From Caenorhabditis remanei (lineage: Eukaryota; Nematoda; Chromadorea; Rhabditida; Rhabditidae): a DNA stretch of 64,000 nucleotides. This document shows positions 8,066 through 38,037 of this stretch, in pieces. The stretch spans positions 20,334,587-20,398,586 of the forward strand of contig NC_071333.1 in NCBI RefSeq assembly GCF_010183535.1. Reading direction: 5' to 3'. The translations under genes were made by a program, and so were the position numbers. Each line of letters starts with the position of its first letter. Position 1 is the first letter of the stretch. Under the pieces are notes generated by a model. That model saw only the letters and a list, made by a program, of their open reading frames with translations. It searched no databases and was not told the origin of the DNA.

Positions 8066-8069
8066 CATG

Positions 8070-10183: not shown

Positions 10184-11405
10184 ATGACTGTCTCTGATAT
10201 CTTTATCTGCTCTGTCTATGTCGAGGGCGTAGACAAGATTAACTGCCGTCGATTTTACTTCGACAAAGGAGTGAACGCTGTGATTGGACCCAATGGCTGT
10301 GGCAAATCTATTCTTCTAGAGGCGATGAGATTTTGCTTGAGTGACACGGAGGTTAGTATAGATCAAATGGAACAGAAAACATGGATTCGGGTATTTTGAT
10401 CAATCATATCCAATTCTTTTGCAGAAATCGTCTATTATATCTGACAAACTTACTGTAGAAGTGTCATTTAAGCTGTCAGAGGATTCTCTCAAAAGCTTCC
10501 GAAGAGTTGTTGATAAGGAAGACTACTTTGTCCAACCATTCCAAATTGATGAAAAAGAAGTTACAAAGGGAGAATACTACCAGGAGTTGGCTGTTCTCAA
10601 CATCTATTCTGTGGAAATTCCATATATGATTCCAAACGCGTCGTGGGGCGAACTGACAACTGTTTCAAAAACAAAACTAGCTCGTTTGATTGAAAACATA
10701 CACCCTGATGGAGCTGACAGCAGAAACGAGTACAAGCAAAAGAAGAATGCACTGGAAGAATTTGAGAGTAAGAAAAAGCCGACGAATGGAGTCAAAAAAC
10801 CTAGCAAGAATTCTCCGCAATACAAAAAGTTGCTGGAGGACTTCGAAAAAGTGAGTTCTTGCCCTATATCAATTAATTATATAACTTTTAATCAATTTCA
10901 GATTGAATCCGAACGTCAAGAATTCTTCATCGAATCACTCACCTCTATTTCCGCTACCCTCAACAAATATTATCAACTGGTCTATGGGAATGATAATAAG
11001 AAGTCGGTATCGCTGAAACCAATCGACCCATTTCATGCCTATCTTGGCGTTGAATTCAAGGTTGACCATGGGTACGGAGATTTGGAATCTAGGGGACTGT
11101 CCGGAGGAGAAAGCAAGTTGATTTCAATTGCTTTTTATCTAGCTGCACAAGCAGCCGCAAAGACTCCATTTGTCATCCTAGATGACTTCGACTTGTCACT
11201 TTTTGAGAAAACATGCGAAAAGGTAAGAATTAATTAAACTTGTGATAATTTTCTTTTTAAACTTACTTTTTTGCAGGTCGCTCCGGCTCTCGAGGAAGTC
11301 GCTGCCTCTACTGGTCTCCAAATGTGTGTCGTGTGCAAGTATGACAAAATGAAAGCTGGAATTGCCAAAAAGACTGATATGTCCCCACAATTCCTTTTTT
11401 GTTGA
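10184..11405 (+). CDS. SMC-like gene A: hingeless SMC head-domain protein (SMCL-1-like)
   Basis: Exons 10184-10351, 10425-10850, 10902-11222 and 11277-11405 give 347 aa; all junctions are phase 0. The ATG lies 10 bases after a TTTGTTTCAG acceptor, consistent with trans-splicing, so longer upstream in-frame starts are rejected. Residues 1-56 form an SMC N-terminal strand region with Walker A GPNGCGKS (35-42). A lysine-rich linker near 160-198 replaces the whole coiled coil and hinge. The C-terminal lobe has a DPF motif (about 240-242, typical of SMC4 heads), the ABC signature LSGGE (264-268) and Walker B ending FVILDDFD, with D292 followed by D293 where SMC ATPases have the catalytic Glu. Residues 124-126 are MIP where a Q-loop glutamine is expected. 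Known family: C. elegans SMCL-1 binds condensin SMC subunits and lacks hinge, coil and hydrolysis residues. Inferred role: nuclear condensin regulator that binds ATP but hydrolyses it poorly. Confidence 0.88.
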
Positions 11406-11456
11406 TACACTTCTGTTTTTGATTCACTTCACGTAACGATGTTTCGATTTTGAAAA

Positions 11457-11462
11457 AATAAA
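11457..11462 (+). terminator. Poly(A) signal of SMC-like gene A
   Basis: AATAAA lies 52 bases after the stop codon, followed by a T-rich stretch. It is a reasonable 3' end for gene A. Confidence 0.7.
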
Positions 11463-11582
11463 TTTCTTTCTTTTTTATTTCATTCTCCAAGTCAGTTATT
11501 CAAGAGTTTCAGGTTAAAAAAATGGACGGTAAAGAACTAATAAGTTTGACATTAAAACTAAACAGAAAATCGAGAAAGAACA

Positions 11583-12039
11583 TACAGTACCGCTCATTAG
11601 GATATGAACTCTGACCGTTTTCAGTTGAAATCGTCCAACTTCGAGAGAGTGTCATGGTAATTCTGATTGTCACACCTAGTAGCATTTTAGTGGATCTTAC
11701 AGATGAAGAGTACAACTACATTTTTGTAGTTGACAACGTTTTTGTACTGCCCCTCCCTAGTAAGTTACATCTCGACAAAATTAGTTCTCCCTCAAATTGA
11801 CCAATTTCAGTGCAAAATATTGCGATTTATGAGCTGTCGTCTTAAAATAACCATAATCTCTTAGGGGAGCGCCGGTACAAAAAAGTTGTCAACTACAAAA
11901 ATGTAGTTCTACTTTTTATCTGTAAGATCCACTAAAACGCTACTAGGTGTGACCATCAGAATTACCACGACACACTCTCAAAATTGGACAATTTCTACTG
12001 AAAACGACCAAAGTTCATATCCTATTGAGCGGTACTGTA
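11583..12039. mobile_element. Palindromic MITE-like element, family P, best copy
   Basis: 457 bp with a perfect 14-base terminal inverted repeat, TACAGTACCGCTCA at the left and TGAGCGGTACTGTA at the right. The inner halves are also inverted copies of each other (GTAGTTGACAAC on one side, GTTGTCAACTAC on the other). There is no coding capacity. Related copies occur near 25725-26108, 52540-52910 and 56502-56950, with diverged ones near 5720, 23095, 30400, 33590 and 40560. This fits a non-autonomous foldback DNA transposon family; no transposase is in the window. Confidence 0.8.
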
Positions 12040-12099
12040 GGTCAATTGGAAAATTTGGTTGGAGGAATACCACAGTAATTCAAAGAAGAAAAATATGAA

Positions 12100-15000
12100 T
12101 AGTTTTTTATTTAATCAACACTTTAACAAAACAAAGTGAAGAAAGTTGCATTAAAACCCATTTTTCATTGTTAAAACGATGAGTAAGTTGAAAATTGCGG
12201 CTGAAACAAGCAGACAACGCAATCGCGCTCCGCTGAAAAAGCCTTTTCTCGCTTTTTTTTGAATCGAGAAGGCTCGTTCAGACACGTTTTGACGAATTAG
12301 CACCAATTTCATGTGTTGAGTCTTGAAGGTTTTTTCTCATCTTTCATTTTGTTTTTGTTGCTCATATATGAGCTCATAAGAAAAACCATCTGTCGTTTTC
12401 GTTCACTCCCTCCGTCTCTTCCTCCTTTCTCCGTCTTCGTTATGCATCTCTTCTTGTATAACCTTTTTTGACCACCCACGAAGAAAACGAGAGACATTTT
12501 GTCTCTCCGTCTCTCTGTGCCTCCCGACTATTTCTTTCTGAATAGTGCTCTTTCAGGGTGAAATTTTTTCTTTCAAACTTGTTCCTGGTAGCAAATTGTT
12601 CCTGGAAAATGTTCATCCTTAACTACGATTTTAAAATAAACGGAATAACACAAAAAATGGACGTATCGAATAAAAAAAATGAAGAGTCTATCAAAATTTG
12701 GTCATTTTGTCTCGTCAAGAAGGGCAAATGACCAAGGAGTTGTATAGAAAAATTAATTTTTCATTGAATGACACTGAAAACATCCAATATAACGAAAAAT
12801 CGTATCTTTGTACTTGCTTCTCACTTTTTAATGTTTCTTTAGTCATCGCAGTAGTCACCATTTCTCGTTGTTCGAGTGAAACGTACTTTTTTCTGTAAAT
12901 CTTTCATTTTCTGGCCCGTAAATCGAAAATTGTCTTAACTTCAAAGGGAATAGAAAAAATTATTTTAAATAATCATTATTTCAAAGTAATAGTGAAAAAA
13001 ATTACGACGTTATCCTTCTCCAAACAGCAGAAGTCTGGCGTACGTTCGGCGCGTTTCTTCAGTATTTCAACTCAATTGACAGCTGTAACTCGCTAATTAG
13101 CAAAATAAACAAAAAGTTGTCAACTAGGAAAATTAAGACAAAGAAATTTCACACAGTTTATCTGTTGACAACTTTTTCGTCCTAATTTACACAACCGAGA
13201 TAAATTGCTTTATACTCGAAAAATGCTACACACTAGCGTACCTTTGGCGCGTTCTGAAGGACGTGTGTATGCTAGACCTGGTTTTGACCGACTTGCAGTT
13301 TTAGAGCGTTTCGTATGTTTCAAGGTGTCTAAGTAAAATGCAGCGCTTTGTTCCAAAAACGTGTTGGTGTAGACACTCTGTGAAAGTTTAACACCAATTC
13401 ATGTAAGGTTTTTTTTCTCCCTATACCAGCTTTCCTCTCTATGAAAAGAAATGATGACACATAAATCACCTTTTTATATTTTTGTTTCTCATTAGAAAAA
13501 TCTTCTGCCCTTTTTGTTCACTTCCTCAGCCTCTTCTTCTTTTCTCTGTCTCAGTAGTCAGGTACCCATCCCTTCTCGTATAACCATTCTTGACCACCTC
13601 TCCTTGCCTTGCCACCCACGAAGAAAACGAGAGACATAGCTTTTGTGTTTGCAATGAAGAGAGGGAGAAAAGTCTGGTCTCTGCGTCTCTCCGTGCTTCC
13701 CGACTATTTCTTCCGTTTTGAAGACCGCTCGGGTGGCCTGTCCATTCATTGAAAAGATCAAATAAAAACGAGAGACGCCGGACGGCAAGACATTTGGTGT
13801 TCGCACATCAGTTCTGCAGAAAGCGACACTTTTCTGACTGTTTTCCGGGATAGTGCAGAAAGTTTGCGATTTTAACTTATTTTATTGAGAATTCATGTCA
13901 CGCGTGTTTGTTATCCGTGTATCAAACTTCTCCAATTCTTGTTTTGATAGGGAAACCATAGTTGCCTTCAAAAAATGAACCTTTTTTCCATTTTTTTCTT
14001 CGAAAATGTGACCATTTTTGACTATTTTTCAGAATTTCTTCTAATTCTGAATGATAGTCGAAAATTTGATTTTTTCGCGAAAAAATTTGAAAAAATTTGA
14101 AAATTTGACTTTCACGCCAATTTGCCCGGGCCGGGCCCTGATTTTGCTGACAAGGCCCGGGCCTTGACAACTATGAGAAAAACTGATTTTCGAAACAATA
14201 CCACACTTTTCTCATAGAAAAACGTTAGCTGATTTTACTTTCTTTTTCTTATTAGTAGCTACGCGGGTCACGCCTTGAATGGGAACAAAAAACCTTGCTT
14301 TTCTGTCACAAATCAATGAACTGAAACGTCAGCATTTTTCAATCGTGTGCTTTTCAGTCGTGATAAAAGCTGTATTGTTTCTTGCTGACCCCCCGCTCCA
14401 CGCAATCATTTCTTTCCTTTTTCTGCTTTTCTCTGACGCTCTTCTATTTCTAGCGGTATTTCTCTCACCTCTACCATTGTCATGTATCATCAATTTCGTT
14501 ATCGGACATTTGCCTTTTTTCTGGCAGTTGGTCGCTTGGTTTTCTTTCTTTTCTCTCTTTTCATTTTGTCATTTTGTTTTTTTTTGCACTCTTGATCGTT
14601 TACGAACAGATTTGCGAAAACATTTCTTTTTTCTAGAAGTTATGAGTCTTAGAAAATTTCAAATGCAAATAAGGTTCCCTCTTCTCGTATAGGTCGAGTT
14701 CGGTTACCCATTGTACCCCTATAAAAGGTTTTAGTCTTTTTTTCATTGCGTTAGAATTACTGTACGTACAGCAGTCTCAGTTCAAAAAACTGCGTAGTTC
14801 TGGTTTTGAAATGCGACCGTTGAGAACCAGAAAATATGTGTTTAAGCCATTATTTTATGAAATGTATGATTTTCCGGTCAAAAACCACTGTTTTTAGCGC
14901 TCACTTGTATTGATTGACTGTTAAAACGTATTTACCTGTATTTTTGATATTTTGAAACAGGTTTTTACCAACAGAATCGACTCATAAGGACCGTTCTCAA

Positions 15001-15660
15001 ACAATTTTTGTTGAAAATCGACTTATTTTGCGGACTTGTTACGAAGCCTGTTTTTGCTCATTTTTTAAACTTACAAAACTTTGTTGTAGAACAACATCAA
15101 TTCTTCCTCTTAATAGTTAACAACTTTTATATAACCCCGCCCACTTTTGAGATATGCGTCCACGAAAATGGGTAGCTTGAAGAGGAATGCGCACCACCTC
15201 CCCGTTTCTCTCGCGCGCGCTTGCCTTCAGTTTGCTGCTTTTCAAAGCACATATCTAGAAAGTGGGCGGAGCTATCAAAAAGTTGCTAATTATGAAAATC
15301 AAGATGTAGGCATGTCATATGCAACCACATAATTTTTGAGCCGCTCCAACAATTTTTGGTTTTGTGACGGGCTCTCAAAGTCAGCCGTGTTTTCATCTGA
15401 AAAAGTCATTGTTTCCAAAGACGCACCTTTTAAAAGTGATCTGACTGATCTGAAAGCCTGGTCAGTTTTTTGTTAAATTTTAATTAATTGATCATAGATA
15501 TGACCTATAATGAATACTACGGTATCTATGCTCGAATAATTTCTTGGTTCACATTTGTGACACCCAAAGAGGCGTTTTCCAGTTTCTTTCAATTGTTGTA
15601 AGTATTATGTTATCTCTCTTGTTCTATGCTCAATACCGTTTCTGTTTCTGTTTTTTTTTC
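12100..15660. other. Intergenic region between SMC-like genes A and B
   Basis: No supported gene. About 12300-12545 and 13385-13710 are diverged direct copies (shared CGAAGAAAACGAGAGACAT and CCCGACTATTTCTT). About 13010-13270 and 15080-15310 contain inverted arms resembling the tandem units at 18.6-19.0 kb. 13990-14110 is an inverted diverged copy of 35940-36030, and 14100-14160 holds GC-rich GGCCCGGGCC palindromes. The plus strand is strongly pyrimidine-rich near 14350-14600. An imperfect hairpin around GCCCACTTTTGAGATATG (15140) pairs with bases near 15250. Confidence 0.5.
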
Positions 15661-15691
15661 AGTTCATCACGTTAGCAATCTTTTTTCCAGA

Positions 15692-17198
15692 ATGTCTGTG
15701 CAATGCATTGTTCAAGTTTCCGTGTTGGGAGTGAGACACGTTCTCGACCAAACGTTGGAATTCGAGAATGGTCTCAACGCCATCGAGGGATACAACGGAT
15801 CCGGAAAAACGACTCTGCTCAAAGCAATCAAGTATTGTCTCAACTACATCCCCGTTAGTCCTTTAATGTCTTTTTTTTCAAACACCTGTTTTTTGCAGGA
15901 CGACTCACTTGTCCGGAGAGACAGCTCTGTGGCGGTGAAGTTCCGCCTTACAAACGGACTGTATCGGACGTACCGGAAATTAACCGGTGACGCGGAAGAC
16001 GAAGAACTGAAGCCGTACTCCATAAATGGCAACAAAGTGTCCGATACGGAGTATGTCGTCGACCTGAACAATGTGGGAATCAATAACCACACTGTTCATT
16101 TCATGATTCCAGAATTCGACTGGAAAGAAATGGCCAGAAAGGATAACTGGCAATTGGCGCTTCTCATTGAAAATTTGTCGCCAGAACTCGAGGATATCAA
16201 ATATGACTTTGAAGAGGTGCAAGAAAAACTCCGAAGAAGAAGTGGAAAAGAAAAGGATGAGGAGTTCGACCGCTTGCAACGTCAATTGGAGGAAGTAAGT
16301 ATTTTTGACCGTTTGGGAGAAAAAAGACAGTTTTTGAGGCTGTCTGTTGCAAAAGTTTTGAAGAAAAAATACTTTTGGCTTGGCCCTGCTTGTAGCCCGG
16401 TTCGGCCCAATCCGATCGGTCTGTTTTGAATCACATTTTAAAGGTTTTTCTAAAAATATCCGGGCTTTTTTTTATTTCCCGAATTTTGTTGCAAAAACAG
16501 GTGCCCTCAATGAAGGCCAAAATTTTGGTGTCCCTGATTGACTCACAAAGGAAACTTTGTATGGACTATACAGAATTATAGTCAATACTGTATATCTGTC
16601 CGGGTCCAGCCGTTTCGAGAATAACAATTGTGATATTTGTCATTACCGAATGCAAAAAATCCAAGAAACCTTCTAATCACTGAAAAAATTAAAAAAATAT
16701 TTATTTTAGGTGAAAACCAGACGAAGAACTACGTTCCTGGAATCTTTCGATGCCTTAGCCACACAAGTCGACCGCTACTACAAAATGGTCACCGGAGATC
16801 AGAACGTCAAGGCTGAGCTCAAAATAGTAAACCCCGCCGAGCCCTATGAGGAAGTGGAGTTCCTCATTTCCTCCAAACATGGGACAATCGACACCCTGGC
16901 GCTCTCATTTGGAGAAATCAGTTTTGTCTCAACCGCCCTGATGTTCGCTTTCCAACACGCCCTTCAAACACCGTTTGTCATTTTGGATCGATTTGATGTG
17001 TCGTTCTCCGGAACATCTTGTATAAAGGTAGGAAATCCAAACAAACAAATTCATGTTATACAATTAATCTGTTTTCAGGTGTCTCGTGGACTCGTGGAAA
17101 TAATGGAGGCGACCGGACTACAGATCAGTGTAATTTGTCACAAAGACATGATGGGTGAAGTCGTTGTGAACGTCATCCACCTGAAAGGAAAAGAGTAG
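15692..17198 (+). CDS. SMC-like gene B: hingeless SMC head-domain protein (SMCL-1-like, most degenerate)
   Basis: Exons 15692-15853, 15899-16294, 16710-17027 and 17079-17198 give 331 aa. Junctions match those of genes A and C in position and phase 0. The ATG is one base after a TTTTTTCCAG acceptor. Walker A is GYNGSGKT (33-40). The ABC signature is degenerate, LSFGE (251-255) instead of LSGGE. Walker B ends FVILDRFD, with D279 followed by R280 in place of the catalytic Glu. The Q-loop region reads MIPEFDW (123-129), lacking Gln. A short charged linker (about 150-192) replaces the coiled coil and hinge. The first intron is only 45 nt and in frame; the second is 415 nt, far longer than in A or C. 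Arg at the catalytic position and the altered signature predict no hydrolysis and weakened head engagement. A pseudogene is unlikely because all four exons stay open. Confidence 0.85.
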
Positions 17199-17340
17199 CT
17201 ATGTTATCTTAAGTTTTATTATATTATACATTCAATTTTTTGGGTTCTCTTACAGCTTGTCATTGGTAAATCAGAAACATGTTCACAATTCCATTTCTCT
17301 TGCTATTTTTTGTAACTATTAACTACTTTTGATACAGTAT

Positions 17341-17346
17341 AATAAA
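17341..17346 (+). terminator. Poly(A) signal of SMC-like gene B
   Basis: AATAAA lies 142 bases after the gene B stop and only 37 bases before the next candidate start codon. Confidence 0.6.
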
Positions 17347-17382
17347 ATATGAAATGTTTAACACTGTTATTGGTTTTGTCTC

Positions 17383-17898: not shown

Positions 17899-17899
17899 A

Positions 17900-19040: not shown

Positions 19041-19180
19041 ATTCAGGCAAAATGAGTTCACACATACTATATCCGCTTATATAACCTATTCTCTGTAAGA
19101 GTCGAACATGGTCACAGTAGGTAGGGGCGTACGGCCTGTATTGATGTTACAGATTAAAAATTGCATGTGCATATACATTA

Positions 19181-20540
19181 GGCCATCAGTGACCCATACC
19201 ATAATTTTTGGGCCCCGGCTCCGGGCTACGGTAGTACGGTAGGTGCTCAAAGGTCAAAAAATTTATTTTTTTGTTTTTCATTTTTAAAAGCTGATTTTTT
19301 TCCAACAAAATATGCACAATTAGTATATACTTTTCCCAAATTATCAGACTTGAACAACTTTTTTTCACCGAGTTCACACCAAAATACCCAAAATTTTGAG
19401 ACATTTTGACAGAAAATCGAAATTTTCGATCCTTATTCAAAAAAACCCCACGACAAAATTTTTGTTTTTCAAATAAAAATTCCAAATTCTTTGATTTAAA
19501 AATATATTCGTTCAAAACAACCTCTGAGCAGAAACCCAAAAGTGCGTCTGACTGAATGACAAAAAAATTTTTTAGACGAAAATCAAAAATTCTTTATTGA
19601 TATCGTAAGATCGTGTTATACTGAACATTTTTTATACTGACACTTTTTTACCAAACTAAGTCCATCTATGAGAAAATCATGTTCAAGATGAAAACAACGC
19701 AAAATTCCATTTTACACCACTCATCTAAAATAAAAATTTTTTCAAGTTTTTTTTTAGTTTTAAAATTTTTTTTAATTAAGTGTTTGTAACAATGTGTTAA
19801 ACACGATAAAGATGAGTTTTACATGAGTTCCTGTCTCACTGTAACATGTGATGAAATTTCCACGTATCCCTATACGTTCGAGTTTTCTACTGAAACAACA
19901 TATTGACGAAATCAAGCAAACAAATTTATTTTATTGCTGGTTACAGAACATAAATCAAAAAATAAGAAAATTAAGGAAAATAACTTTCCTTTTGATGCGC
20001 AGTGCGAAACGAGAAATTTTGCGTTGGTTTCATCTTGAACATGATTTTCTCATAGATGGACTTAGTTTGGTAAAAAAGTGTCAGTACAAAAAATGTTCAG
20101 TATAACACGATCTTACGATATCAATAAAGAATTTTTGATTTTCGTCTAAAAAATTTTTTTGTCATTCAGTCAGACGCACTTTTGGGTTTCTGCTCAGAGG
20201 TTGTTTTGAACGAATATATTTTTAAATCAAAGAATTTGCAATTCTTATTTGAAAAACAAAAGTTTTGTCGTGGGGTTTTTTTGAATAAGGATCGAAAATT
20301 TTGATTTTCTGTCAAAATGTCTCAAAATTTTGGGTATTTTGGTGTCAACTCGGTGAAAAAAAGTTGTTCAAGTCTGATAATTTGGGAAAAGTATATACTA
20401 ATTGTGCATATTTTGTTGGAAAAAAATCAGCTTTTAAAAATGAAAAACAAAAAAATAAATTTTTTGACCTTTGAGCACCTACCGTACTACCGTAGCCCGG
20501 AGCCGGGGCCCAAAAATTATGGTATGAGTCACTGATGGCC
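19181..20540. mobile_element. 1.36 kb foldback element with about 545-bp arms
   Basis: The left arm, 19181 to about 19726, is nearly the exact reverse complement of the right arm, about 19994-20540, around a roughly 270-bp AT-rich centre. The ends read GGCCATCAGTGAC and GTCACTGATGGCC. GC-rich GGGCCCCGGCTCCGGGC sits near each tip. The same 70-codon open frame appears in both arms but looks composition-driven, and there is no transposase. Both flanks contain TATACATT, a possible imperfect target duplication. It is a non-autonomous foldback transposon or a recent inverted duplication; the very high arm identity implies a young age or gene conversion. Confidence 0.85.
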
Positions 20541-20677
20541 TGGTATACATTTTAATACAAAAATAAATCCCTAGTACCCACGTTGCTCGAGTCTTACAGA
20601 GAATAGGATATATGGATAGTTAAGTAGGACGTCGATCAAAAAACTAAAAATTCTAATCACAAATTCCTTATTATAGT

Positions 20678-20783
20678 TTCACTTTGCTCTAATTAGTTTT
20701 TTCAAAACAGTTTTTCTTTTCATCCTTTCCTTTAGAAAGAGAAAAAGGTGAGAAAACTAATTAGCTATGTTGCAAAGTGAAAA
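20678..20783. promoter_or_regulatory. Imperfect palindrome with TAATTA sites upstream of gene H
   Basis: CACTTTGCTCTAATTAG at the left mirrors CTAATTAGCTATGTTGCAAAGTG at the right with small gaps. TAATTA is a typical homeodomain core, so this may be a regulatory site for the secreted-protein gene; it could equally be a small transposon remnant. Confidence 0.4.
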
Positions 20784-20797
20784 GGATTTGAGGTCAC

Positions 20798-20804: not shown

Positions 20805-20837
20805 GGGAGGAAAACCATTTGTCAGTTCACTCGCAGT

Positions 20838-22150
20838 ATGACAATTGTTACTCTGTTACTTTTGTTATTAATACCTATTACTTGGGAATGTGCACCTACC
20901 GTACATGTGTCTAACCCTATTGTGTCTTCTACCTATTCTCCGGATTCGTCACCAGATCCGCCGACAACTACGACCCAGACGGCTTCAACAACCCCAGCTC
21001 CCAACACAACAACGATTTGGAGTACGAGTACTGCCTTGAGTACAACAGTCTTCGATAGTACAACAACATTCGAAATCACAAGTACTGCTGCGAATACAAC
21101 CACGACACTACCTACCACAACAACCACATTAATCACGACTACAGTAAGACGTGAGTTTTTTGAGGTTTGAATTATGTTTTGTTGGAATTCGAATCTTTTA
21201 TACTCTTGGAGGAATACTTTTGGAAACATTCCGACTAGAGAATAATCTCGGGTTGAAATGGAGTTACATGTCGAGATATATATCATTAGAACGGAAATCT
21301 TGCGGTGATTTCGTATTTTTTTCTGTTTTTCTTTCTGAACGATCTCATGGAAGAAGTTATTTGCGTTTTTGAGCTTCACCAGTTCAAGACTCACAAACTT
21401 AATGTTTTTCTTATTTTTTCAATGTTTTTGTGTTGTACGTGTATTTCTAACTATGTGAACTTTTAAAAAAAGTTAAAATAATAAAAGAATACAGATTTCA
21501 ATGCATAATCTTTGTTCTAGTGGTATCTCGACCTGTAACTCTATTTGGACCGGGATCCTTTTCTAGTGAGCGCAATGAGCTGTTTTACAAAAGAACTATC
21601 AATAATAAGCAGTAATAAAAATGTAAAAATATTTATTTAAAAGAATGTATCAAATCGAAATAGTTCAGTTCTGAAGGTGACAGCACTTTTATTTTCAGCT
21701 TGTTGTTCATGGCCGTTCGCAGGTCGCGGTATCAATACAATCAGTCTTACGATGAACCAATGGGATAACTGTACTCAAAGTCTATTCTACACCTGTCGTC
21801 TCGGAAATGTGACTGGTACCGTTACTGCAATTGGTATTTCGACCAATATAAATATAAATCTTGATGCAATCAATATGCCAATGTTGAACATTGGACAGGT
21901 GGTAAGATTTATAACTTTTTTATTTCAACAACGTTCAAATCGAGAAATACTAGTATTATATTTTAAAACATTTTCAACTATTTCTTTACAGAGGTTCATT
22001 ACCAACGATACATTAACTACGATAAATACAACTCTTATCTGTGATACTTCATCACGTTTGTGGGCTGTCAACTCGCTTCAGTTTGGAGAACAATTTAGTA
22101 CATTTGCATGTGCTTATATGTACAGTAACGGAACATGGTCCTGGCAATAA
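20838..22150 (+). CDS. Secreted Thr-rich six-cysteine protein (gene H)
   Basis: Exons 20838-21150, 21699-21901 and 21992-22150 give 224 aa. The first junction uses GTGAGT with phase 1, the only choice that keeps the cysteine exon in frame; the second is phase 0. Residues 1 to about 18 are a clear signal peptide (a run of leucines, then a cleavage-like WECAP). About 30-104 is Thr/Ser/Pro-rich, mucin-like and probably O-glycosylated. The C-terminal half carries six cysteines (CC, WDNC, FYTC, LIC, FAC) with several N-x-T sites. This layout resembles the nematode C6/DUF281-type secreted proteins, but I cannot confirm the family. A cuticle, gut-lumen or pharyngeal location is inference. Confidence 0.8.
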
Positions 22151-22828: not shown

Positions 22829-22900
22829 TGCGTTCGGGGGGAATCGAACCCCCGTCGAATGCTTGGAAGGCATCCATGCTGACCATTACACCACGAACGC
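22829..22900 (-). tRNA. tRNA-Gly(UCC), copy 1
   Basis: 72 nt. Acceptor stem GCGTTCG/CGAACGC with discriminator A, T arm GGGGG-TTCGATT-CCCCC, and anticodon loop CTTCCAA giving anticodon UCC. No intron. The DNA on its upstream side (22901 to about 23400) is homologous to that of copy 3 (33386 to about 33760) in the same orientation, so gene and flank were duplicated together. Confidence 0.97.
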
Positions 22901-26108: not shown

Positions 26109-26252
26109 GTTCTTGATAGGTTTACATTATATCTATGTTTCTCGCGTTTTCTGTTGTTATAGTGAATCGGAGATATCAAAATAAAAGTCCACATGTTTTT
26201 CCTTTTTTTTTAACTGTGAGACTTTTACAGTAAAAAAAGTTTCAATTTTAGG

Positions 26253-27176
26253 ATGTCTTTCTTCAATGGGTTACCAACTGGTCTCTCTGCCACCGGGTAA
26301 GACCGTAAGTTAAAAACTTATAAGCAACGTGTCTTATTTTTCAGCGCTAGACGCAGACTCTCTAGCATCGATAACTTGGAAAGTGAAGATACTTCATCAT
26401 CTTCCTCTCCAAGCTCGAATCTTCTCGAAAGACTCTTGTTGCCATTAGAGAGAATGCGAATCGGATTTCCAGAAGTAGCACCACGCTACATGGAGTCTGA
26501 TTTCATCTCAACGACTCCATACTCAATTGGTGATATGCACCTCGATGATCCTCACTACTCATACAACACCCGTCGTCTTCGTTCACTTGAAAGACCATCT
26601 GCCCCACGTCGTGGCTTGAGCCACAGCGGTAGCGTCCAGGCACCACCTCTCTATTCCAATAGTTTCGATTTGGCATCGAGAGTGGTCAGTGTTATGCAAT
26701 ACCTGTCAATGATGAAACTAATCGTGTCTTCTCTGGAATCATCCGCTTTTGACGCTATTTTGGAGAAAATTGAAGAGAAAATGGATTTCACTCCATCACA
26801 CAAGGTATCATTACGAACCACACAGCAGTTAATAACATCTACACTTATTTCAGAAATGCCTCGACACCACTGTTGTCAAATCACTCAAATCCATTCTGGA
26901 AATGTCGACTCGCCAATCGAAAATTGCTCTCTATAATCCAGGATCCATAACTGCGAAAGATTTCAAGATCGCACTTCGCACGATGTCGTTCATGCTCCAA
27001 TCTCAGAAAATGAACGAGTTTCGCGCTGAACTTCAAGAAGAAATCAACGCAGACTGTGGTCGCCATGTTAGTACTATTTGACTGAATGTGAAATTGTGAT
27101 ATCAAATTTTCAGAAGATCAGCTTCAGTAAGCTAATCATCGCGTTCAACTTCGCTATCGAATTGGTTATCCCTTAG
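26253..27176 (+). CDS. Unknown family 1 protein, copy D
   Basis: Exons 26253-26296, 26345-26804, 26854-27066 and 27114-27176 give 259 aa. The ATG is one base after a CAATTTTAG acceptor. The first junction is phase 2 and the others phase 0, exactly as in paralog E (31898-32748). Residues about 15-40 are Ser-rich. A shared block around FPEVAPRYMESDF then Y-S-(V)-I-G-D lies near residues 55-80. The C-terminal third is helical, with conserved KIALRTMSFML and FRAELQEEI. There is no signal peptide, membrane segment or recognised domain. The protein is probably soluble; its function is unknown. Transcription may be affected by the adjacent family P palindrome. Confidence 0.8.
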
Positions 27177-27179
27177 ATA

Positions 27180-28025
27180 ACCTGGACTCCTGCAACTTCT
27201 CTAAAATGTTTTTATTGGGTACGCTTAATCTGCTCTTATAGCTTTTCTTACACATTCGTTCTCTAAAAATATACTTTTTTGCATATTCTATACTACTCAA
27301 ACTTCTCTAATTGTAATAACTTATTCTTTATGTTATTCTACCCATTCCGCTTCTCGTCGCTCAAAATTTTCATTTCCGCAATAGTTTTTTGTGTGTGTTT
27401 ACTTCTGCCGTTAGTTTCCATCCTTCATCTCCATGCTTCCTCTAATTTCACTCTCACCAAACACTACTTCTCAGACAATCCGTATTTCTGAATAAAAATC
27501 ATGTTGATCCGGATATGTCTTGGCTAAAAAGCAAATCTATAAGCAAAAATCATGTCGCCTAGCACGAGGCTTTCGTGAATGTGGCCAAATCGGAATTCCA
27601 TGCAAAAAAGCGTAAAAAGTTTGGAAGCTCATAACGTGGCTCACAGAGCCATTCAGCCTGTTTGGACTGCAGAATTAGACTTCCCGTTGTCAAAAGTACC
27701 TATAACCAAATTTATAAATTGTTCGAAACCCGCGTCTCCAAAGACTTCGCTTTTGTACTCGGCACTATAAAGACTCAATGTGCAAAAATCAGGCTTGGGA
27801 AAGCTTTGAACCGTACATACTACAACAATAATAAAAATAGGAATTTATTGCTAGCAGAAGGTAAGACGATAACAGTATTGTTTTCATAGATAAAAAGTTT
27901 GAATTTCGTTGAAATTCTACAAAGAATCACGAAGAATAAATGGTTACCGAAAAAGAAGATCCATCATAAGAAAGTATAAATTTTTGCGTTGAAAAAATAA
28001 CCATAGACGTGTTTCCCTGGGAAGA
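27180..28025. other. Intergenic between convergent genes D and F
   Basis: AATAAA at 27491-27496 may end gene D. About 27540-27850 has short broken open frames that may be repeat or retroelement debris; I do not recognise them. No gene is supported. Confidence 0.4.
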
Positions 28026-28032
28026 AATGACA

Positions 28033-28497
28033 TTAGCAATAGGAAGATTGTGTTTCGTTGCTGGCTGTCTCCTTAACAACTTTCCATGCTTCCTCCGGGG
28101 ACTCTCCTTGAATAACTCGAATCACAACCATCTCCAGCATCTTGCAAACTTGCTCTCCATACTTGAATCTTTTCAAGTTTTCCTGTAATTAAAAGAAATT
28201 CAAAAATTGTGGTCTTCAAGTGAATACAAATAATATGGAAAAAAATTTACCGTAGTGGCAGGAAAATGCGCACATTCCACCATTGTTTGGAAAAAGCAAA
28301 TGAGATCTGTGAGAAGCGCCATATGCTCCGGGACTTGAGCTCTCTGAAAGACAAATATTTAATCAAATAACAGGGAAATAAGCACAAACCTTGTTGGTCA
28401 TGAGACTCTTGAGGCATCTGATTTTTCCTTTAACATCTTTCACAAATTGAATGGACTTAAGAGGTTTTGGAGGTGGATTTATTGGAACAGCAAACAT
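28033..28497 (-). CDS. Unknown family 2 protein, copy F
   Basis: Minus-strand exons 28390-28497, 28251-28343 and 28033-28182 give 116 aa; both junctions are phase 0. Exon lengths (108, 93 and 150 nt with stop) match paralog G (108, 93 and 153 nt). The start MFAVP...PPPKPL is followed by a conserved KIRCLKSLMTNK, a hydrophobic helical middle (DLICFFQTM) and a C-terminal helix containing EEAWKVVKE. There is no signal peptide and no known domain. The start is supported by the same AAAAATG context in both copies. Its position, inverted relative to gene D while G is co-oriented with gene E, implies a segmental duplication followed by inversion. Confidence 0.78.
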
Positions 28498-28879
28498 TTT
28501 TGAAGAGGAGTAATCGATAAACGTTACTTTGAGAGGAATGTGAACAGTAACTGACTGTGTATGAGTACGCGACGCGCAGTCTTCCCAAAACCATCTGTCC
28601 CACATGACATGGAATGCACAATCAATAAATGAACCTACAAACAAATATGAAAACTTAAGTACTGTACAGTCAGATCATAAATGTAAGCGTTTTTTTCAGA
28701 TGACAAATGTTCATAGTCCCTTTGCTGTTCGACTTTTTCGGAGTACGCTTCTATCAAAAATAGAAAGCCAAGTTTCTAATCACGTGCAGTCAGAAGCTAG
28801 ACATGATGTCTGAAATCGTCCCACTGAGTAATCATTTTGAATTTCAGTAATTAAATTTACTTTAGTCATCACTTGTCGC

Positions 28880-29740: not shown

Positions 29741-29749
29741 GTTTGAAAC

Positions 29750-30535: not shown

Positions 30536-30539
30536 CTAG

Positions 30540-30990
30540 TTCCTAAATCCCACAAAGAGCTCCACTTTTGTAGTTGACTGTATTTTGATACGAGTCCTTG
30601 TTTAAAAGTTTAAGCTAGTTCAAATACATTTACTTTGGCTGCTCATAAGTTCCTAAAAAATCATAACTGAGAAATTTCATTAACTACAAAAATGAAGCGC
30701 TAGATTTAAACTTTACACCCTGAAAAATTAAAAATTTTAGAACAATCGCTCTTATCATGGCACGCGTTCAAATTTTTTCATTGTCTCCCCTCTTCTTTGA
30801 TGAGTCATCCGTCCTCTGCACACAATGATTTCTCCCTCTGCCCTCTCTACAGCCGTATTGTTGGTTCATATTAACACATTCACCCGCCCGTCTTTCGTTG
30901 AGCGTTCGTGGTGTAATGGTCAGCATGGATGCCTTCCAAGCATTCGACGGGGGTTCGATTCCCCCCGAACGCATAATCTTTTTTCTTTTT
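30540..30990. repeat. Left arm of inverted repeat around gene E
   Basis: About 450 bp is inverted and homologous to 33300-33760. It includes tRNA-Gly copy 2, a GATGAGTCATCC segment, the block around AGAACAATCGCTCTTATCATG, and a diverged family P palindrome. The two arms bracket gene E. Confidence 0.8.
30902..30973 (+). tRNA. tRNA-Gly(UCC), copy 2
   Basis: 72 nt, identical to copies 1 and 3. Acceptor stem GCGTTCG/CGAACGC, loop CTTCCAA with anticodon TCC at 30935-30937, and an intact T arm. It is followed by TAATCTTTTTTC, a pol III terminator-like T run. Confidence 0.97.
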
Positions 30991-30999
30991 TGAATTTTG

Positions 31000-31890
31000 T
31001 CTTGAAAAGTATTGAAACTATAATATCATCCTTTTTCAATGTTGAAACTGGAAATTGATATTAAGGATATGTTAGAAAACTAATCTTTTAGACTTTCGAT
31101 TGGAGTAAAATCAATAGGTCCTCCGCGACATGTTTGGCCTTTTATATCATCTTTCTTATTTTTCGAATCAAACAAAAATTGGTTTCCTAAAAATAAAGAG
31201 CATTTCATTTCCCATAAATGTTAGAGTACTGTGATTTTATGGGTTCCTTCTTCACGCCTACATAATTGGTTCTGCTTTCCGTCTCTTGTCACATTACGTT
31301 TTACTTTTTATGTGATGTGTGTTTTTTTTAATTTTCTATATTGGATTACTTGTTTTGGAGGGCTAGTCTTTTTGGAGTGCTTACATATTTGTTTTTCTTG
31401 AAACTTAAGTCATTTTGGCCGAATTTGATCGTAGGTAAGTAGGCAAACGGTCGAGAAGTATCACTCAGGTCTTCTAAGTATGTGTTTCTACATTTTCGTA
31501 AGCTTGACTGCTTTAAAATATTGCGGTATCGTGGTTAAGAATGTTATAAATTGTAGATTCAAGTTGATAGCTGTATATATTCAGTCTATGTCCTTCTCAA
31601 ACTGAGATACATACCTTTATTTTGTATCATGACAAAATTTTTACCAATGTTGCAGTCCCATGCCATAAACTGTTCAGCTTTTTTATTTCCGACCAACAAT
31701 CACCTCCGATTTCCTCCGAGTACTGTTTTTTTCTGTTTTTTCCCATATCAAATTTTTATTGAGCCCTCCCTTCGCCTCACCATATTCGAAGAACCAAATG
31801 CCTCTCGTTAGCCTTCCTCGCTCTTTCTATTTTCTTTATTTTCTCTACATTATTAATTTTTAACGTTGATTTTTCCAGGTTTTCATTTCT
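31000..31890. other. Upstream region of gene E
   Basis: No supported gene. 31226-31290 resembles 24470-24530. A TTTTTCCAG acceptor at 31878 precedes the gene E start by 19 bases and may be its trans-splice site. Confidence 0.45.
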
Positions 31891-31897
31891 CTGTCGA

Positions 31898-32748
31898 ATG
31901 TCAAGTGGTGTCGTTACCATTGGGTGAGTTCAGAAGACTTGATAGGTAGTTTATATCAATTTTTCCAGAGCTAAGCGGAGCATCGGAAATTCTCTATCAC
32001 CATCGAGTCCAAAACGCTTGAACTTGATCGAAATGATGCAAGTCAACATTCCCGAGGTTGCTCAGCCATACAGAGATTCCAATTTCATTCTCACGCCCCC
32101 ATACTCTGTCATTGGTGATCTCCATTTCTCAATTGATGTTCCTCGACTCCCGGATCGCGTTCCAGCACCACCACCAATACCAGCTGCCGATATAGCTTTC
32201 AATGGAGTCCACTATGCACCACCTCCACCACCCATTTTCAATCAGCCAAACATGATTCCCACCAAAAAATATCTGGAAATGATGAAGTTGCTGATCATTT
32301 CGTTGGGATCACCAACATTCACTGGTGTTTTGGCGAGAATTGAAGGGAATTTGCAAGTTGTTCCGGCATGCTTGGTAGGAGATATAATCTCACACTATAT
32401 TCTATAAATTTCATTTTTTCAGATGTGTCAAGAATGGAAGATCACGGATTCATTGAAATGCATCCTCTACATGATCCGCAATCAATCATATCTCCCACCA
32501 TTTCCTGTCCAAGGCTCACTGACAGCGAAGAACATCAAAATCGCACTCCACGCTTTGTCATTCATGCTGGAGTCACCGGACATGAACAAGTTCCGAGCTG
32601 ACCTTCAAAAAGAAATTGATGTCGATATTGGTCTCCACGTAAGTACTAATAAGGGGAATTGTGAAAGTCTCATATCATTTTTCAGAAGATCAACCCCAAA
32701 AAACTCAACGCTGCGTTCCACTACGCCATCGAATCGATTGTCATTTGA
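31898..32748 (+). CDS. Unknown family 1 protein, copy E
   Basis: Exons 31898-31923, 31969-32374, 32423-32638 and 32686-32748 give 236 aa. Junction phases (2, 0, 0) match paralog D. Shared blocks are IPEVAQPYRDSNF, Y-S-V-I-G-D near residues 45-60, KYLEMMKLLI, and IKIALHALSFMLES followed by FRADLQKEI. A proline-rich stretch (about 75-100, including APPPPP) replaces D's Ser/Arg-rich part and could bind SH3 or WW domains. There is no signal peptide or membrane segment. It lies inside an inverted repeat whose arms carry tRNA-Gly genes. Function unknown. Confidence 0.8.
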
Positions 32749-32904
32749 ATTTTTGGCCATTTTCGCTTGGGTTATCCTGCATACCTATAATTTCTCTAAA
32801 TTTTCTGCACTTTACTTTCTTCTTATTTTGCAAAATTCTTATGTTCGCTTCATCCCCTAATTTTTGCTTGGTGACTTCTTGGTAATAGCTTTTCTCTTGA
32901 TATT

Positions 32905-32910
32905 AATAAA
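32905..32910 (+). terminator. Poly(A) signal of gene E
   Basis: AATAAA lies 156 bases after the stop codon, in an AT-rich context. Confidence 0.55.
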
Positions 32911-33299
32911 ATACTATTTATCGAAATGCAAACATGTTTATGATGACTGGCAAGAAATCTAACAGAATTGCTCGAGATACCTGGAGATAACTGGAAAAAA
33001 GCCAAGGAATTAGCCCCGAATTTTTATTACAACTGAGCCCCATCGCAAAAAATGTATCGCCTAGAGACGCAAAGTTTTTTTTGCGGCAACGCAGATGTTC
33101 ATAGTTTTGGCCTATTCTCGCTATTTTCTATAATTGCTTTGGTAAATTCCTATGAAAGGCGAGAATAGGTCGAAAACGGAGAAAATCTGTCTCGGCGCGA
33201 AAAAACTCTGTGTCTCTCGCCAATACTTGCTCGTTTGCGGTGTGGTGCAGTTGTAAGACGGGGTGGGCTGCTGATAATGTTTAAAAAATTGTTTAAAAA

Positions 33300-33760
33300 A
33301 AGAAAATAGATTATGCGTTCGGGGGGAATCGAACCCCCGTCGAATGCTTGGAAGGCATCCATGCTGACCATTACACCACGAACGCTCAATAAGAGGGCAA
33401 CGGGTAAATGTGTAGATATGAACAACTAGTGCGGCAGTGGAGAGCGGAGAGATAAAAATCATTGCGTGCGGTGGAGGGATGACTCATCAGAGAAGAGGGG
33501 ACACAATTAAAATTTTTGAACGCGTGTCATGATAAGAGCGATTGTTCTAAAATCTCTAATTTTTCAGGGTGTAAAATTCAAATCTAGTGCTTCATTTTTG
33601 TAGTTAATGATTTTGTCCAGTAATCGATTCCTAGGAACTTATAAGCCGACAAAGTGAACGCGTTCGAACCAGCTGCAACTCTTTAACAAGGGGTCGTATC
33701 AAAATACTGTCAACCACAAAGATGAAGCTCTTCGTGAGATCTACGAACTCTACAAAAATG
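33300..33760. repeat. Right arm of inverted repeat around gene E
   Basis: Inverted copy of 30540-30990, also homologous in direct orientation to 22829 to about 23400. It contains tRNA-Gly copy 3. Three copies of the same flank show that the tRNA was duplicated together with several hundred bases of neighbouring DNA. Confidence 0.8.
33314..33385 (-). tRNA. tRNA-Gly(UCC), copy 3
   Basis: 72 nt on the minus strand, identical to the other two copies, with anticodon UCC and an intact acceptor stem and T arm. A T run follows on the tRNA strand after a few bases. Confidence 0.97.
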
Positions 33761-34067
33761 ATCACCATGATTCAATTAGTCACTTTGCAGCGCAGAGTCC
33801 ATATTAGTTGTCACACGTTTTCATTTAACTTTTAGATTTTTTCTCTCAAAAGAAAAAAAACAGTTCCATGTTTGACCAGCATTATTTTATAGGGAGCGCC
33901 TATAGAGTAATGTTCAGAAGGTAAAAACAAACATGTTGATTTATTGATTTTTCACGTTATTCGAGACAGATGGTCATGGGAAGGCTTGCACGTCTTCTAT
34001 GCATACACATTCTGTTGTTTTCCCCATTCAGTTTTATTTTGTTAACATCTATCGCCAGTTCTCAAAA

Positions 34068-34531
34068 ATGTTTGCCATCCCAAAAAACCCAACTCCAAAA
34101 CCTCTTCTGACTAAACAAACCGTGAAGGAGATTGAGGGTAAAATGAGATGCCTTCGAAGCTTGATGACCAACAAGGTATGCACTTTGTATGTTTTCCATT
34201 TTCCTATTCAATTTTCCCATTACAGAGAGCACAACCTCCAGCGCATATGAATCATCTTATCGATTTGATGTGCTTCTTTCAAGCGATGCTTCAGTGCAAG
34301 AACATGCCAGCAACTGATGTAAGTTTTTTTCAAAAAGTTTCAATCTTCATTCAAGTACCATAATTGTACGTATTTCAGGAAAATAAAGAGAAATTCAAGC
34401 ATGGGCAGAAAGCGTGCGATAGGATGATTGAGGTGGCGATCCGAGTGGTCCCTGGAGGCGAGACACTCGAGGAAGCATGGAAAGCGGTCAACGAGGCGGC
34501 CAAGGAATTTAAATCTATTAATAAAATATAA
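34068..34531 (+). CDS. Unknown family 2 protein, copy G
   Basis: Exons 34068-34175, 34226-34318 and 34379-34531 give 117 aa; both junctions are phase 0. It is a paralog of F at 28033-28497: MFAIPKNPTPKPL, KMRCLRSLMTNK, RAQPPAHM, DLMCFFQAML and a C-terminal EEAWKAVNEAAKEF helix all align. No targeting signal or known domain. It is rich in Lys, Met and Leu and predicted helical. The AATAAA at the stop (ATTAATAAAATATAA) may serve as the poly(A) signal, or one may lie farther downstream. Neighbour E repeats the D/F pairing, so families 1 and 2 were duplicated as a block and may act together. Confidence 0.8.
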
Positions 34532-34539
34532 CGGTCCAC

Positions 34540-36040
34540 ACATTGCAATCATCACAAATAATTCATATTTATATATGTTAATCAAACGTGCCATATTATT
34601 GATTCGATTGTTTTTCATTGGCAGTGATCAGATTTTTTGTGATCTTTATGTTCTTGTCATCCTTCTATGCCAATAAATATGGTTTTTATTCATACAGTTG
34701 CTCAAAGTTATGACCATTAGTTCTGTACAAGATGTGCTTATCGGCTCCAATGGCACGGCAGCGATGGAACCCGTTATTGGGTTTGATGAGGGACATTTCC
34801 TCAATATGATCATCATGCGAGTCTATTGATTGCAGTGGTTTTCATCAGCGGAGCGAATCGTAAGAAACGCATAGCTGTTTCTCACCGTCAGCTGAGGCAG
34901 CCGAGGGATGCGTTCTCCTCGGCACTCTCATTGTCCTACGTTTGTGTCAGGGATGAGAGATAGTGTCTGAGTCTCATATATTATTTGAATAAGGTGTAAC
35001 CAGAATAGGGATAGCCTCTGGGAATACCATAATAAAGAGGCCCCTAGCAAGGTTTATTTAACACGGTATATCTTTTTTCTCAGAACAGATATCGAAAAGT
35101 TGCCAACAGACAAAATATAGCTGAACTCATTTGAAATATTTGTTCAGTAGGAAAACATTTGAAAGCTCTCAAGGCAGTGAAGATATTGTGCACCAAACTC
35201 TTGCTACTCTATGCAACTCTATTAGAGGGTTTACGGTAACTCTATTCCCCAAAGACGTTTTCTCGAGTAAACCTCAATCTTTCTAATCACTTTTTTTTCA
35301 GATTCTTCAACATAATTTTCCCCCGAATCATCATCATCGCAAGGTCTCGCCGCCGTCCAGGTCAATCTTTGCCCCTTCGCACTCAGGTGATGTCTGCGTC
35401 TCTGCTTTTTCACCGTGTGGACACGCGCGGCAAATTCAAACAAATGAACATTTTTGCATATGTTTTTTCACTAGTTTTCACCGCTTTTCCTTCTTTTTTC
35501 TTAGTTTTTCTGTATTCTTTTTCTTTTAATATGTTCCTCTATTCCCTCTGGTCCTCTTTTGATGTGATTCACCAATTTTCTCCTTGGGAAACTTAAGAAA
35601 ATTCCTGGCTCTGGCCTAAAATAAAATCAAAATCCTGTCGTTTTTGATGGCGCCAAAACACGGCAACCTTTTTCCACTAATAAAAGAACTACAATTATTT
35701 AAGAAAAATCGATGTTACATATAAAAAAAGTAATCATCTCGCTCAATGCGCAATCGATAGGCCTCGAGTCGACAGCGGCGAGAGAGCACAGCAAACCAAG
35801 AGCGTGCAAACAGTGACGTGTCAATTGAGCGTTGCGTTGACATAACATTGAAGGGAAAAGGAGATAAAACAAATAAAACTGAAAGGGAATTGATCTGAAA
35901 AAGATAATTATAGCCAAAGTAGAAATTTCAGGTTTTTTCGAATTTTTAGGAAACTTAGGAATTTTTTTGCGAAAAATTTAAACTTTCGACTATTATTCAG
36001 AATGAGAAGAAATTCAATGAAACGTTTAGCCCAAAATTTT
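34540..36040. other. Repeat-bearing intergenic region upstream of SMC-like gene C
   Basis: No supported gene. 34823-35025 is a copy of R2 (8441-8690). 35298-35818 is a copy of R1 (7525-8065). About 35940-36030 is an inverted diverged copy of 13990-14110 (shared TAATAGTCGAAA-type core and GCGAAAAATTT). Confidence 0.6.
35298..35818 (+). repeat. Dispersed direct repeat R1, copy 2
   Basis: Aligns with 7525-8065 over most of its length; both copies end near a TCGAGTC, CAGCGGCGAGAGAG stretch. It lies about 1 kb upstream of SMC-like gene C. Confidence 0.75.
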
Positions 36041-36046
36041 GCAAAA

Positions 36047-36600
36047 ACTAGTCCCCGTTTTTAAAATGTCAGTTTATGACAATTCCAGCATTTTAGGGTC
36101 TAAAAACAACAAAAAACACCGAATGTGGTCCGTGGCCAAGTTTTGGAAGTTGGAACACGTGGCCCATAAATCCCAATTATGTAAAAACTAGTCACCGTTC
36201 TCAGAATGTCAGTTTTTGACATTTCCAGCGTTTTTAGAGTCAAAAAACCACAAAAGCATCGACAATGGTCCGTGGCCGAGTTTTTCAACATGTGGCCTAG
36301 AAATCCAAATGATGTAAAAACTAGTCCCCGAGCTAAGAATGTTTTTTTTGACGTTTCCAGCGTTTTTAGAGTCTAAAAACAACAAAAACACCAAAAATTG
36401 CCCGTGGCCGAGTTTTTGAACACGTGGCCTAGTAATCCAAATTATGCAAAAACTAGTCCCCAATCTCAGAAAGTCTGTTTTTGTCATTTCCAACGTTATT
36501 AGAGTCTAAAAACAACGAACAACACCAAAAGCGGTTCCTGGCCGAGTTTTTCATCACATGGTCTTGAAATCCAAATCATGCAAAAACTAGTCCCCGACGT
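36047..36600 (+). repeat. Tandem repeat, four units of about 134 bp
   Basis: ACTAGTCCCCG-like unit starts lie at 36047, 36187, 36320, 36452 and 36586 (spacings 140, 133, 132 and 134). Each unit contains a CATTTCCAGC-like stretch, TTAGAGTC, AAACAAC, CGTGGCCGAGTTTTT and a CATGTGGCCTA or CACGTGGCCTA segment. It ends about 180 bp before the gene C start and may be a satellite or a promoter-proximal repeat array. It is non-coding. Confidence 0.85.
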
Positions 36601-36781
36601 CCAAAACTGCTTCAGGGCTACTGTATGTTTCAACACTTTAATTTTCATTTTCCACATTTTCCATAGTTGTTTCTCTACAAACTTTCCCTTTTTACTCTAA
36701 CTAACTTCTCATATTCATTTCCCTGCCAACAGCCTCCAAACTGTTTCTTGTCTTCTAATTAATTGTTTTCAGAGCTACAAA

Positions 36782-38037
36782 ATGTTGTCCTTGTTGTCTG
36801 TGAAGGTAGAAGGTGATCCATATCTCAAAGACCAGACAGTCTCATTCAATGAGGGATTCAATACCATCTCCGGAGTCAATGGATCGGGAAAAACCCTTCT
36901 GGTCCACGCAATCCGCTTCGGATTAAACGGGAAATCGGATGTAAGTAATTTTCATTGAAATCGGGAGACTAAAATTGGGAAGTTACTTAGTATTCTGTAA
37001 TAGATATACATTTTATAGTTGGACTCTGATATCAAGTTTGAATTCTCTATTTCAGGATTCTTTCTACACTTTCTCTGGAAGGGTCACACTTCGCTTTCAT
37101 CTTCCCAATCGATCAGAAGTGGAATACTCCAAAGCTGCCGGACGGATGACTCGTTATTGGATTGATGGAAAAGAAGTTTCATCCGAGCAATACGCGGAAG
37201 GCCTGGAAGAAATCGGAATCACACCGATTATGATTGGAGTGATGGTACCTGGCGTTGGATGGGGAAAGATGGGCACCTCGACCGACAAAGAACTTTCGAT
37301 GTTCATTGAAAAAACTATGCAAAATGGACAAAAAATGAAAGGAGAGTGTGATATTTTGAAGAAGAAGATAAGAATATCGATGGGAGCCGCCGCTCCAAAA
37401 GGAATTCAAAAACCGTCGAAAACCACTAATGAATTGCAAAAGGAGCTCGCCGCGGTTAGTTATAACTTTTGTTCTGAAACAAAAAACTTTGAAACCGAAA
37501 TCGAAACCGAGAAATGCATTCATAATACTATTTTCAGGCCAAGAAGAGAAGAAGTAACGCTCTCAACAGACGTATCAATACCATGTCGTCAAATGTTGAT
37601 GAACTCTATAAGATGCTCAACGGCAATGCAAACCAAATGGCGGCTTCATTCCGACCGGAAAATCCAGAGGAGCCATATGCTGGAGTCGAAATGGTACTGG
37701 ATCAAGGATATGGGATAATGGAACCGTCGAATCTTTCGGGAGGAGAGATGAAGATTGCCAGCATCGCAATCAATCTTGCTGCCGTTCGGGTGCTCCAATG
37801 CCCGTTCGTCATTTATGATAACTTCGATGAAAACTTCTCGAGGGAATCATGTAACTCGGTAGGTGCAAATAATTTATTTTTCATTTTCATTTTTAATTAA
37901 GTTTCTTTCAGGTCGGGATGGCATTCCGTGAACTTGTCGAAAGTGGAAATCTTCAAATCATTGCGGTTTGCAAGCAGGATGCCATGAGGAACCAAACGCC
38001 GCACACATTTGAGATGACTCTTCCAGAGGACGACTGA
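36782..38037 (+). CDS. SMC-like gene C: hingeless SMC head-domain protein (SMCL-1-like)
   Basis: Exons 36782-36940, 37056-37454, 37538-37858 and 37912-38037 give 334 aa; all junctions are phase 0 and homologous to those of A and B. The ATG lies 9 bases after a TTGTTTTCAG acceptor. Walker A is GVNGSGKT (31-38). The Q-loop region reads MVPGVGW (116-122), without Gln. The ABC signature LSGGE is intact (252-256). Walker B ends FVIYDNFD, with D280 followed by N281 in place of the catalytic Glu. A Lys-rich linker (about 150-192) stands where the coiled coil and hinge would be. An E-to-Q change at this site traps SMC heads engaged with ATP, and N here may do the same. Inferred role: condensin-binding regulator like SMCL-1. 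Repeats R1, R2 and the 134-bp array lie just upstream. Confidence 0.87.

Follow-up and report, generated by a model that had tools for sequence, protein, structure and literature searches.

What is the origin, and what might be the role, of three short genes of the SMC (structural maintenance of chromosomes) family that lie close together in the genome of the nematode Caenorhabditis remanei? The stretch of DNA analyzed here (the window, 64,000 nucleotides (nt), C6:20334587-20398586 of the 130.5-Mb assembly) is part of contig C6 (21.5 Mb), which we take to be probably the X chromosome. A first-pass annotation had described the three genes, here called A, B and C, as a local cluster of hingeless SMC heads with the architecture of C. 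elegans SMCL-1, and had suggested a comparison with SMC4 and DPY-27. The results of the current study indicate that their parent was probably smc-1 of cohesin, not DPY-27. The best explanation of the locus, which we regard as fairly probable, is a local, smc-1-derived family of pseudo-ATPases consisting only of an SMC head, which may act as dummy heads on SMC partners.

Three SMC heads without a hinge

All three genes, and all the motifs and introns described below for them, lie on the + strand. Gene A (10184..11405, 347 aa) has exons at 10184-10351, 10425-10850, 10902-11222 and 11277-11405; gene B (15692..17198, 331 aa) at 15692-15853, 15899-16294, 16710-17027 and 17079-17198; and gene C (36782..38037, 334 aa) at 36782-36940, 37056-37454, 37538-37858 and 37912-38037. 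Position 10184 marks the ATG of gene A, and 38037 is the last base of the gene C stop codon. Each gene consists of four exons, and every intron is in phase 0 with GT/AG ends, in agreement with the homologous phase-0 junctions claimed earlier. The odds of stop-free frames of this length arising by chance were 1.6e-10 (A), 8.3e-9 (B) and 1.9e-9 (C).

Two of the genes correspond to published C. remanei proteins of the same length, CRE_07629 for A (345 of 347 residues identical, 99%) and CRE_07623 for C (310 of 334 identical). For gene B, no record was found in protein-database searches with A, with the A1 profile or with residues 200-335 of CRE_07629. It was also observed that 24 of 334 residues differ between C and its record and 2 of 347 between A and its record; gene C may evolve faster than A, or may sit on a divergent haplotype. 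Acceptor-like sites (TTTCAG or TTCCAG; TTTCAG for A) are located directly 5' of all three ATGs and would fit trans-splice sites. An AATAAA follows the stop codon at 51 nt in A and at 142 nt in B. Seven poly(A)-signal variants were looked for within 400 nt past the stop codon of C, and none was present.

The Pfam profile SMC_N matched N-lobe and C-lobe in all three genes (A 88, B 70 and C 75 bits; cut-off 40). The introns separating the two lobes measure only 51 (A), 415 (B) and 83 nt (C), so that hinge exons cannot fit. A search of the whole assembly with the SMC_hinge profile listed, among the best candidates scored, seven matches at an expectation value (E) of 10 or below, none of them on contig C6. 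Judged by their sequence, A, B and C are thus SMC head genes without a hinge. The first-pass annotation had left no room for hinge or coiled coil; this holds for the hinge, and for the coil it has to be amended, since helices at residues 152-171 and 187-226 in the structure model of CRE_07629 indicate a short coil stub. This model used 55 alignment rows (two C. remanei records and 53 of the 101 other database matches); a two-sequence model was poor (predicted local distance difference test score, pLDDT, 51.2) and was discarded.

Pairwise identity among the three proteins is 30-33%. The genes differ from each other at 0.64-0.68 of third and 0.39-0.41 of second codon positions, and since third positions have diverged more than second ones, A, B and C look like old, constrained genes and not like fresh copies or pseudogenes. 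Searches of the assembly score the best candidates only, and the resulting counts are lower bounds. They returned at least 12 (A), 14 (B) and 12 (C) matches, nine for each query inside the window. A+B+C form a 100/100 clade in the tree of SMC heads, and the proposed local family is supported. The matches beyond the window were weak; those that recurred fell in SMC-1 (on C1) and in a DPY-27-like gene (on C3). No further copies of the family were seen outside the window among the best-scoring assembly matches. Outside SMC genes, three weak matches had E values of 0.19-1.5 and one of 0.086, and a Pfam match at C2:7.15 Mb resembles an ATP-binding cassette (ABC) transporter.

Ancestry of the family

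Candidate parents, taken from the SMC1 to SMC4 classes, were assigned by comparison with solved structures. C. remanei has SMC-1 on C1, SMC-2 on C2, and SMC-4 and SMC-3 on C3 (at 8.62 and 9.45 Mb, respectively). The gene at C3:13.52 Mb is also of SMC4 type and is named DPY-27-like here. The first-pass annotation had pointed to SMC4 and DPY-27 for comparison; the best head outside the family was that of SMC1 for all three genes (human SMC1A for A and C, yeast SMC1 for B). A profile of A, B and C searched against the PDB scored 107 bits with SMC1 heads (E 7e-30), 72 with prokaryotic Smc, 52 with SMC3 and 51 with SMC4. Among class-specific hidden Markov models, that of SMC1 also scored highest for all three genes, with a lower class score for SMC4/DPY-27. 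In control queries, SMC-2 gave 113 with SMC1 and 119 with SMC4, and SMC-3 gave 103 and 88, indicating that an SMC1 lead as large as that of the family is not general. SMC1 was also the best structure match of the CRE_07629 model, a ranking that is supportive only.

In the tree of SMC heads, A+B+C grouped with SMC1 (99/98), the three SMC1 rows not forming one group within this clade. The family lies on the same side of the SMC2+SMC3 split (100/99) as SMC4 and DPY-27. Placed singly, the genes also went with SMC1: B 96/97 and C 97/98 (starred), A 85/97. Placement of the whole family with DPY-27, SMC2 or SMC3 was tried and rejected by the approximately unbiased (AU) test (p 0.0135, 0.0162 and 0.0143, respectively). 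When the genes were held singly with SMC4, p was 0.27 (A), 0.12 (B) and 0.035 (C).

The intron positions point to the same parent. C. remanei smc-1 has phase-0 introns before VKTDRYRRF and after NIGK. Intron 2 of the family (A 10851..10901, B 16295..16709, C 37455..37537) shares alignment column and phase with the former, and exon 3 of B begins with VKTRRRTTF where the penultimate exon of smc-1 begins with VKTDRYRRF. Intron 3 (A 11223..11276, B 17028..17078, C 37859..37911) shares column and phase with the smc-1 junction NIGK|VASYI. When smc-1 and the family profile were each aligned to human SMC1A, the same junction residues came to lie opposite each other; the junction columns are therefore independent of how the smc-1 lobes were joined. 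For the other SMC genes, introns were located in the heads only, from the open frames, and neither intron 2 nor intron 3 coincided with any mapped head intron of SMC-2, SMC-3, SMC-4 or the DPY-27-like gene, including the SMC-2 intron before DFGKIF (column 270) and the SMC-3 intron before SIEELL (column 244).

Exon sizes suggest how the family could have arisen. The penultimate exon of smc-1 measures 324 nt, compared with 321 (A), 318 (B) and 321 nt (C) for exon 3 of the family, and smc-1 exon 2 (582 nt) is bounded by phase 0 on both sides. With these phases and sizes, smc-1 exons 1 and 2 joined to the penultimate and last exons would give an in-frame four-exon hingeless gene. We infer exon loss as the route from smc-1 to the family.

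The case for an smc-1 parent has limits. For A, the next ranks below human SMC1A were close together (yeast SMC1 38.8, DPY-27 38.7, SMC4 35.8 and C. remanei SMC-1 34.0 bits). Placement of the family with SMC4 was not rejected (AU p 0.075), and A alone rejected none of the alternatives, DPY-27 included (p 0.095). Branches are long throughout, so the tree is supportive and not conclusive. Intron 1 is ambiguous: it adjoins a deletion, lies ten columns from that of smc-1, and falls on the column of a phase-0 DPY-27 intron in A and B and one column beyond it in C. Taken together with the scores and with introns 2 and 3, an smc-1 parent is still considered probable.

This kind of protein was already known; what is new and surprising here is the probable smc-1 parentage of the hingeless heads. 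In the parts of the SMCL-1 literature consulted (PMC5373644, PMC12629237, PMC8917352), a derivation of smcl-1 from smc-1 was nowhere stated.

ATPase motifs, SMCL-1 and the surroundings

The Walker A pattern is intact in all three genes (A GPNGCGKS, 10286..10309; B GYNGSGKT, 15788..15811; C GVNGSGKT, 36872..36895). According to the alignment, the Q-loop region reads YMIPNASW in A (10623..10646), FMIPEFDW in B (16100..16123) and VMVPGVGW in C (37239..37262); the glutamine of the SMC1 FQG/YQG is replaced in all three, inside a common MIP/MVP...W motif whose tryptophan is always present. The signature motif is LSGGES in A (11097..11114), LSGGEM in C (37733..37750) and a degenerate LSFGEI in B (16902..16919), A and C thus retaining LSGGE. 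In the Walker B and D-loop segment, the catalytic glutamate is changed to aspartate in A (FVILDDFDLSLFE, 11169..11207), to arginine in B (FVILDRFDVSFSG, 16974..17012) and to asparagine in C (FVIYDNFDENFSR, 37805..37843), and the D-loop aspartate is lost in each. A DxFD motif is common to the three genes. In the alignment, 17 columns are deleted downstream of the Walker A helix, a stretch that we take to be the R-loop. The products may therefore bind ATP, and hydrolysis is not expected.

SMC1/HIM-1 and the family resemble each other in sequence, tree position, predicted structure and the position and phase of two introns. Unlike SMC1/HIM-1, A, B and C have neither hinge nor long coil, carry the 17-column deletion and have lost the catalytic glutamate, the Q-loop glutamine and the D-loop aspartate.

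SMCL-1 (C44C10.4) of C. elegans has been described together with 10 SMCL-1-like proteins from five other Caenorhabditis species, including C. remanei (PMC5373644). These were recognized by SMC homology, short length, absence of a hinge, a Walker A motif, the pattern GG-x20-hhhhD-notE, an imperfect signature and no predicted coiled coil (PMC5373644). SMC homology, short length without a hinge and Walker A were found in A, B and C alike, and the GG-x20-hhhhD-notE pattern in A and C. B reads FG-x20-FVILDR, with the glutamate lost but GG changed to FG. The signature is degraded in B (LSFGE), whereas A and C keep LSGGE. The published SMCL-1 pattern therefore fits A and C and not B, which is tied to this kind of protein solely through its clade with the other two. 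Since A and C fit the published pattern and C. remanei is reported to have members, they are probably among the 10.

As in SMCL-1, the three proteins consist of an SMC head only, with Walker A present and the catalytic glutamate lost, and A shares with SMCL-1 an aspartate at that position (PMC5373644). They differ from it in being three copies within 28 kb, in the FG of B and in an ancestry that points to SMC1. SMCHD1, which also has a role in chromatin, is likewise a truncated relative of SMC proteins (PMC5373644), but it resembles the hinge and not the head.

The protein-database searches listed above for gene B also returned nothing labelled SMCL-1; such searches need shared five-residue words, and this absence is not evidence. 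The A1-profile search returned the C. remanei records and 101 others (best E 4e-8), of which the named ones were nearly all RecN. A literature search for CRE07629 and CRE07623, also written with an underscore, found no mention of either. By its clone name, hnd-1 (C44C10.8, located on X; PMC1175957) neighbors smcl-1. None of 53 basic helix-loop-helix (bHLH) matches in the C. remanei assembly lay within 3 Mb of the window, and hnd-1 was not confidently identified among the six that were translated of seven bHLH matches on C6. Table 2 of PMC12629237 lists CRE15073 as a third SMC-4 homologue of C. remanei, with coverage below a 50% threshold; it may be a further partial SMC gene, in a different C. 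remanei assembly.

Between B and C lies a pair of spliced paralogous genes without a Pfam match (26250-27180 and 31898-32750, repeat family D11). A second paralogous pair, inverted repeat I6, is in opposite orientation (28380-28503, -; 34062-34185, +), and its + copy has no Pfam match either. Together, these pairs suggest that a block was duplicated and in part inverted. Longer repeated blocks also contain three tRNA-Gly(TCC) genes (22829-22900, 30902-30973 and 33314-33385), whose orientation is mixed. A fold-back element at 19152-20569, with arms of 555 nt that are 96% complementary and 308 nt apart, has the appearance of a recent inverted-repeat transposable element. A tandem repeat with units of about 132 nt (36010-36610) is located just upstream of gene C. 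The stretch 7990-8700, about 2 kb upstream of A, matches 35756-35815, about 1 kb upstream of C, over 60-70 nt at 84-85%, and its positions 399-665 match C6:19714245-19714502 at 81%; it is a low-copy repeat. A short gene at 20839-22150 begins with a signal-like sequence and contains a threonine-rich stretch as well as a domain with cysteines; it has no Pfam match.

Proposed action and its meaning

In the proposed history, an ancestral copy of cohesin smc-1 would have lost the exons between the second and the last two, removing coils and hinge in frame. Local multiplication of the resulting gene would have followed, with divergence to about 30% identity. Each product would fold into a single SMC head that carries a short stub of coil. 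ATP may bind through the intact Walker A, and hydrolysis should fail. Such a dummy head could bind the head of an SMC partner and block its ATPase and loading cycle, or sequester free SMC protein, in line with the poison-head or sequestration action proposed for SMCL-1 (PMC5373644). The net effect would be restraint of SMC complexes, as proposed for the C. elegans protein.

Heads of the SMC1/SMC4 class pair with heads of the SMC2/SMC3 class. As the family head is of the former class, SMC2/SMC3-class heads are expected as partners, with MIX-1 or SMC-3 as first candidates. By analogy with SMCL-1, condensin (MIX-1) is favored, and both the partner and the inhibition are inferred.

The alternative in which the genes are cohesin decoys, pairing with SMC-3 and restraining cohesin, is unlikely, and it keeps the most ground among the rivals. 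It shares the SMC1 ancestry indicated by scores, tree and introns, and SMC3 is the natural head partner of SMC1. However, most of the SMC-1 C-terminus that starts at YNKADSLIGIFP is either absent from A, B and C or cannot be aligned with them; this stretch is presumably where the kleisin site lies, which makes that site doubtful in the family. Moreover, the only cohesin recovered with SMCL-1 was HIM-1, at a normalized spectral abundance factor (NSAF) of 0.02.

Somewhat less likely again is a condensin-derived expansion of SMCL-1 from SMC-4 or DPY-27, each copy being tuned to a different condensin SMC. The SMCL-1 motif pattern of A and C, the SMC4 placement that survived the AU test, and the column and phase of intron 1 that A and B share with DPY-27 speak for it. 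Against this, SMC1 outscored SMC4 for each gene, DPY-27 was rejected as parent of the three together, the C-lobe of the DPY-27-like gene is a single exon, and the mapped C-lobe introns of SMC-4 do not coincide with those of the family. A separate condensin partner for each copy is so far not supported.

It is improbable that the genes are fast-decaying paralogues with no role in SMC regulation. The differences between C and its record, compared with those of A, and the degraded signature of B would fit decay, but all three frames are intact with GT/AG splice sites, the codon positions indicate constraint, and the MIP/MVP..W and DxFD motifs are held in common. An artefact, in which the exons belong to full-length SMC genes or to unrelated ABC ATPases, is hardly credible given the short inter-lobe introns, the lack of a hinge match on C6, the published records that equal A and C in protein length, and first matches to SMC proteins ahead of transporters.

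Returning to smc-1-derived dummy heads, a wider and more tentative proposal can be made, to which we would give somewhat less than even credence. SMCL-type regulators, perhaps including SMCL-1 itself, may have arisen from smc-1 by loss of the coil and hinge exons, so that a pseudo-head from one complex polices another; in C. remanei this would have led to three copies that differ in their dead catalytic residue and possibly also in their SMC targets. SMCL-1 has been tied to SMC-4 duplication and to the emergence of condensin I-DC (PMC5373644), and an smc-1 origin, if true, would change that account. It would also predict SMC2/SMC3-class heads as partners, and A, B and C would then represent three natural dead-head variants for testing how SMC ATPases are stalled.

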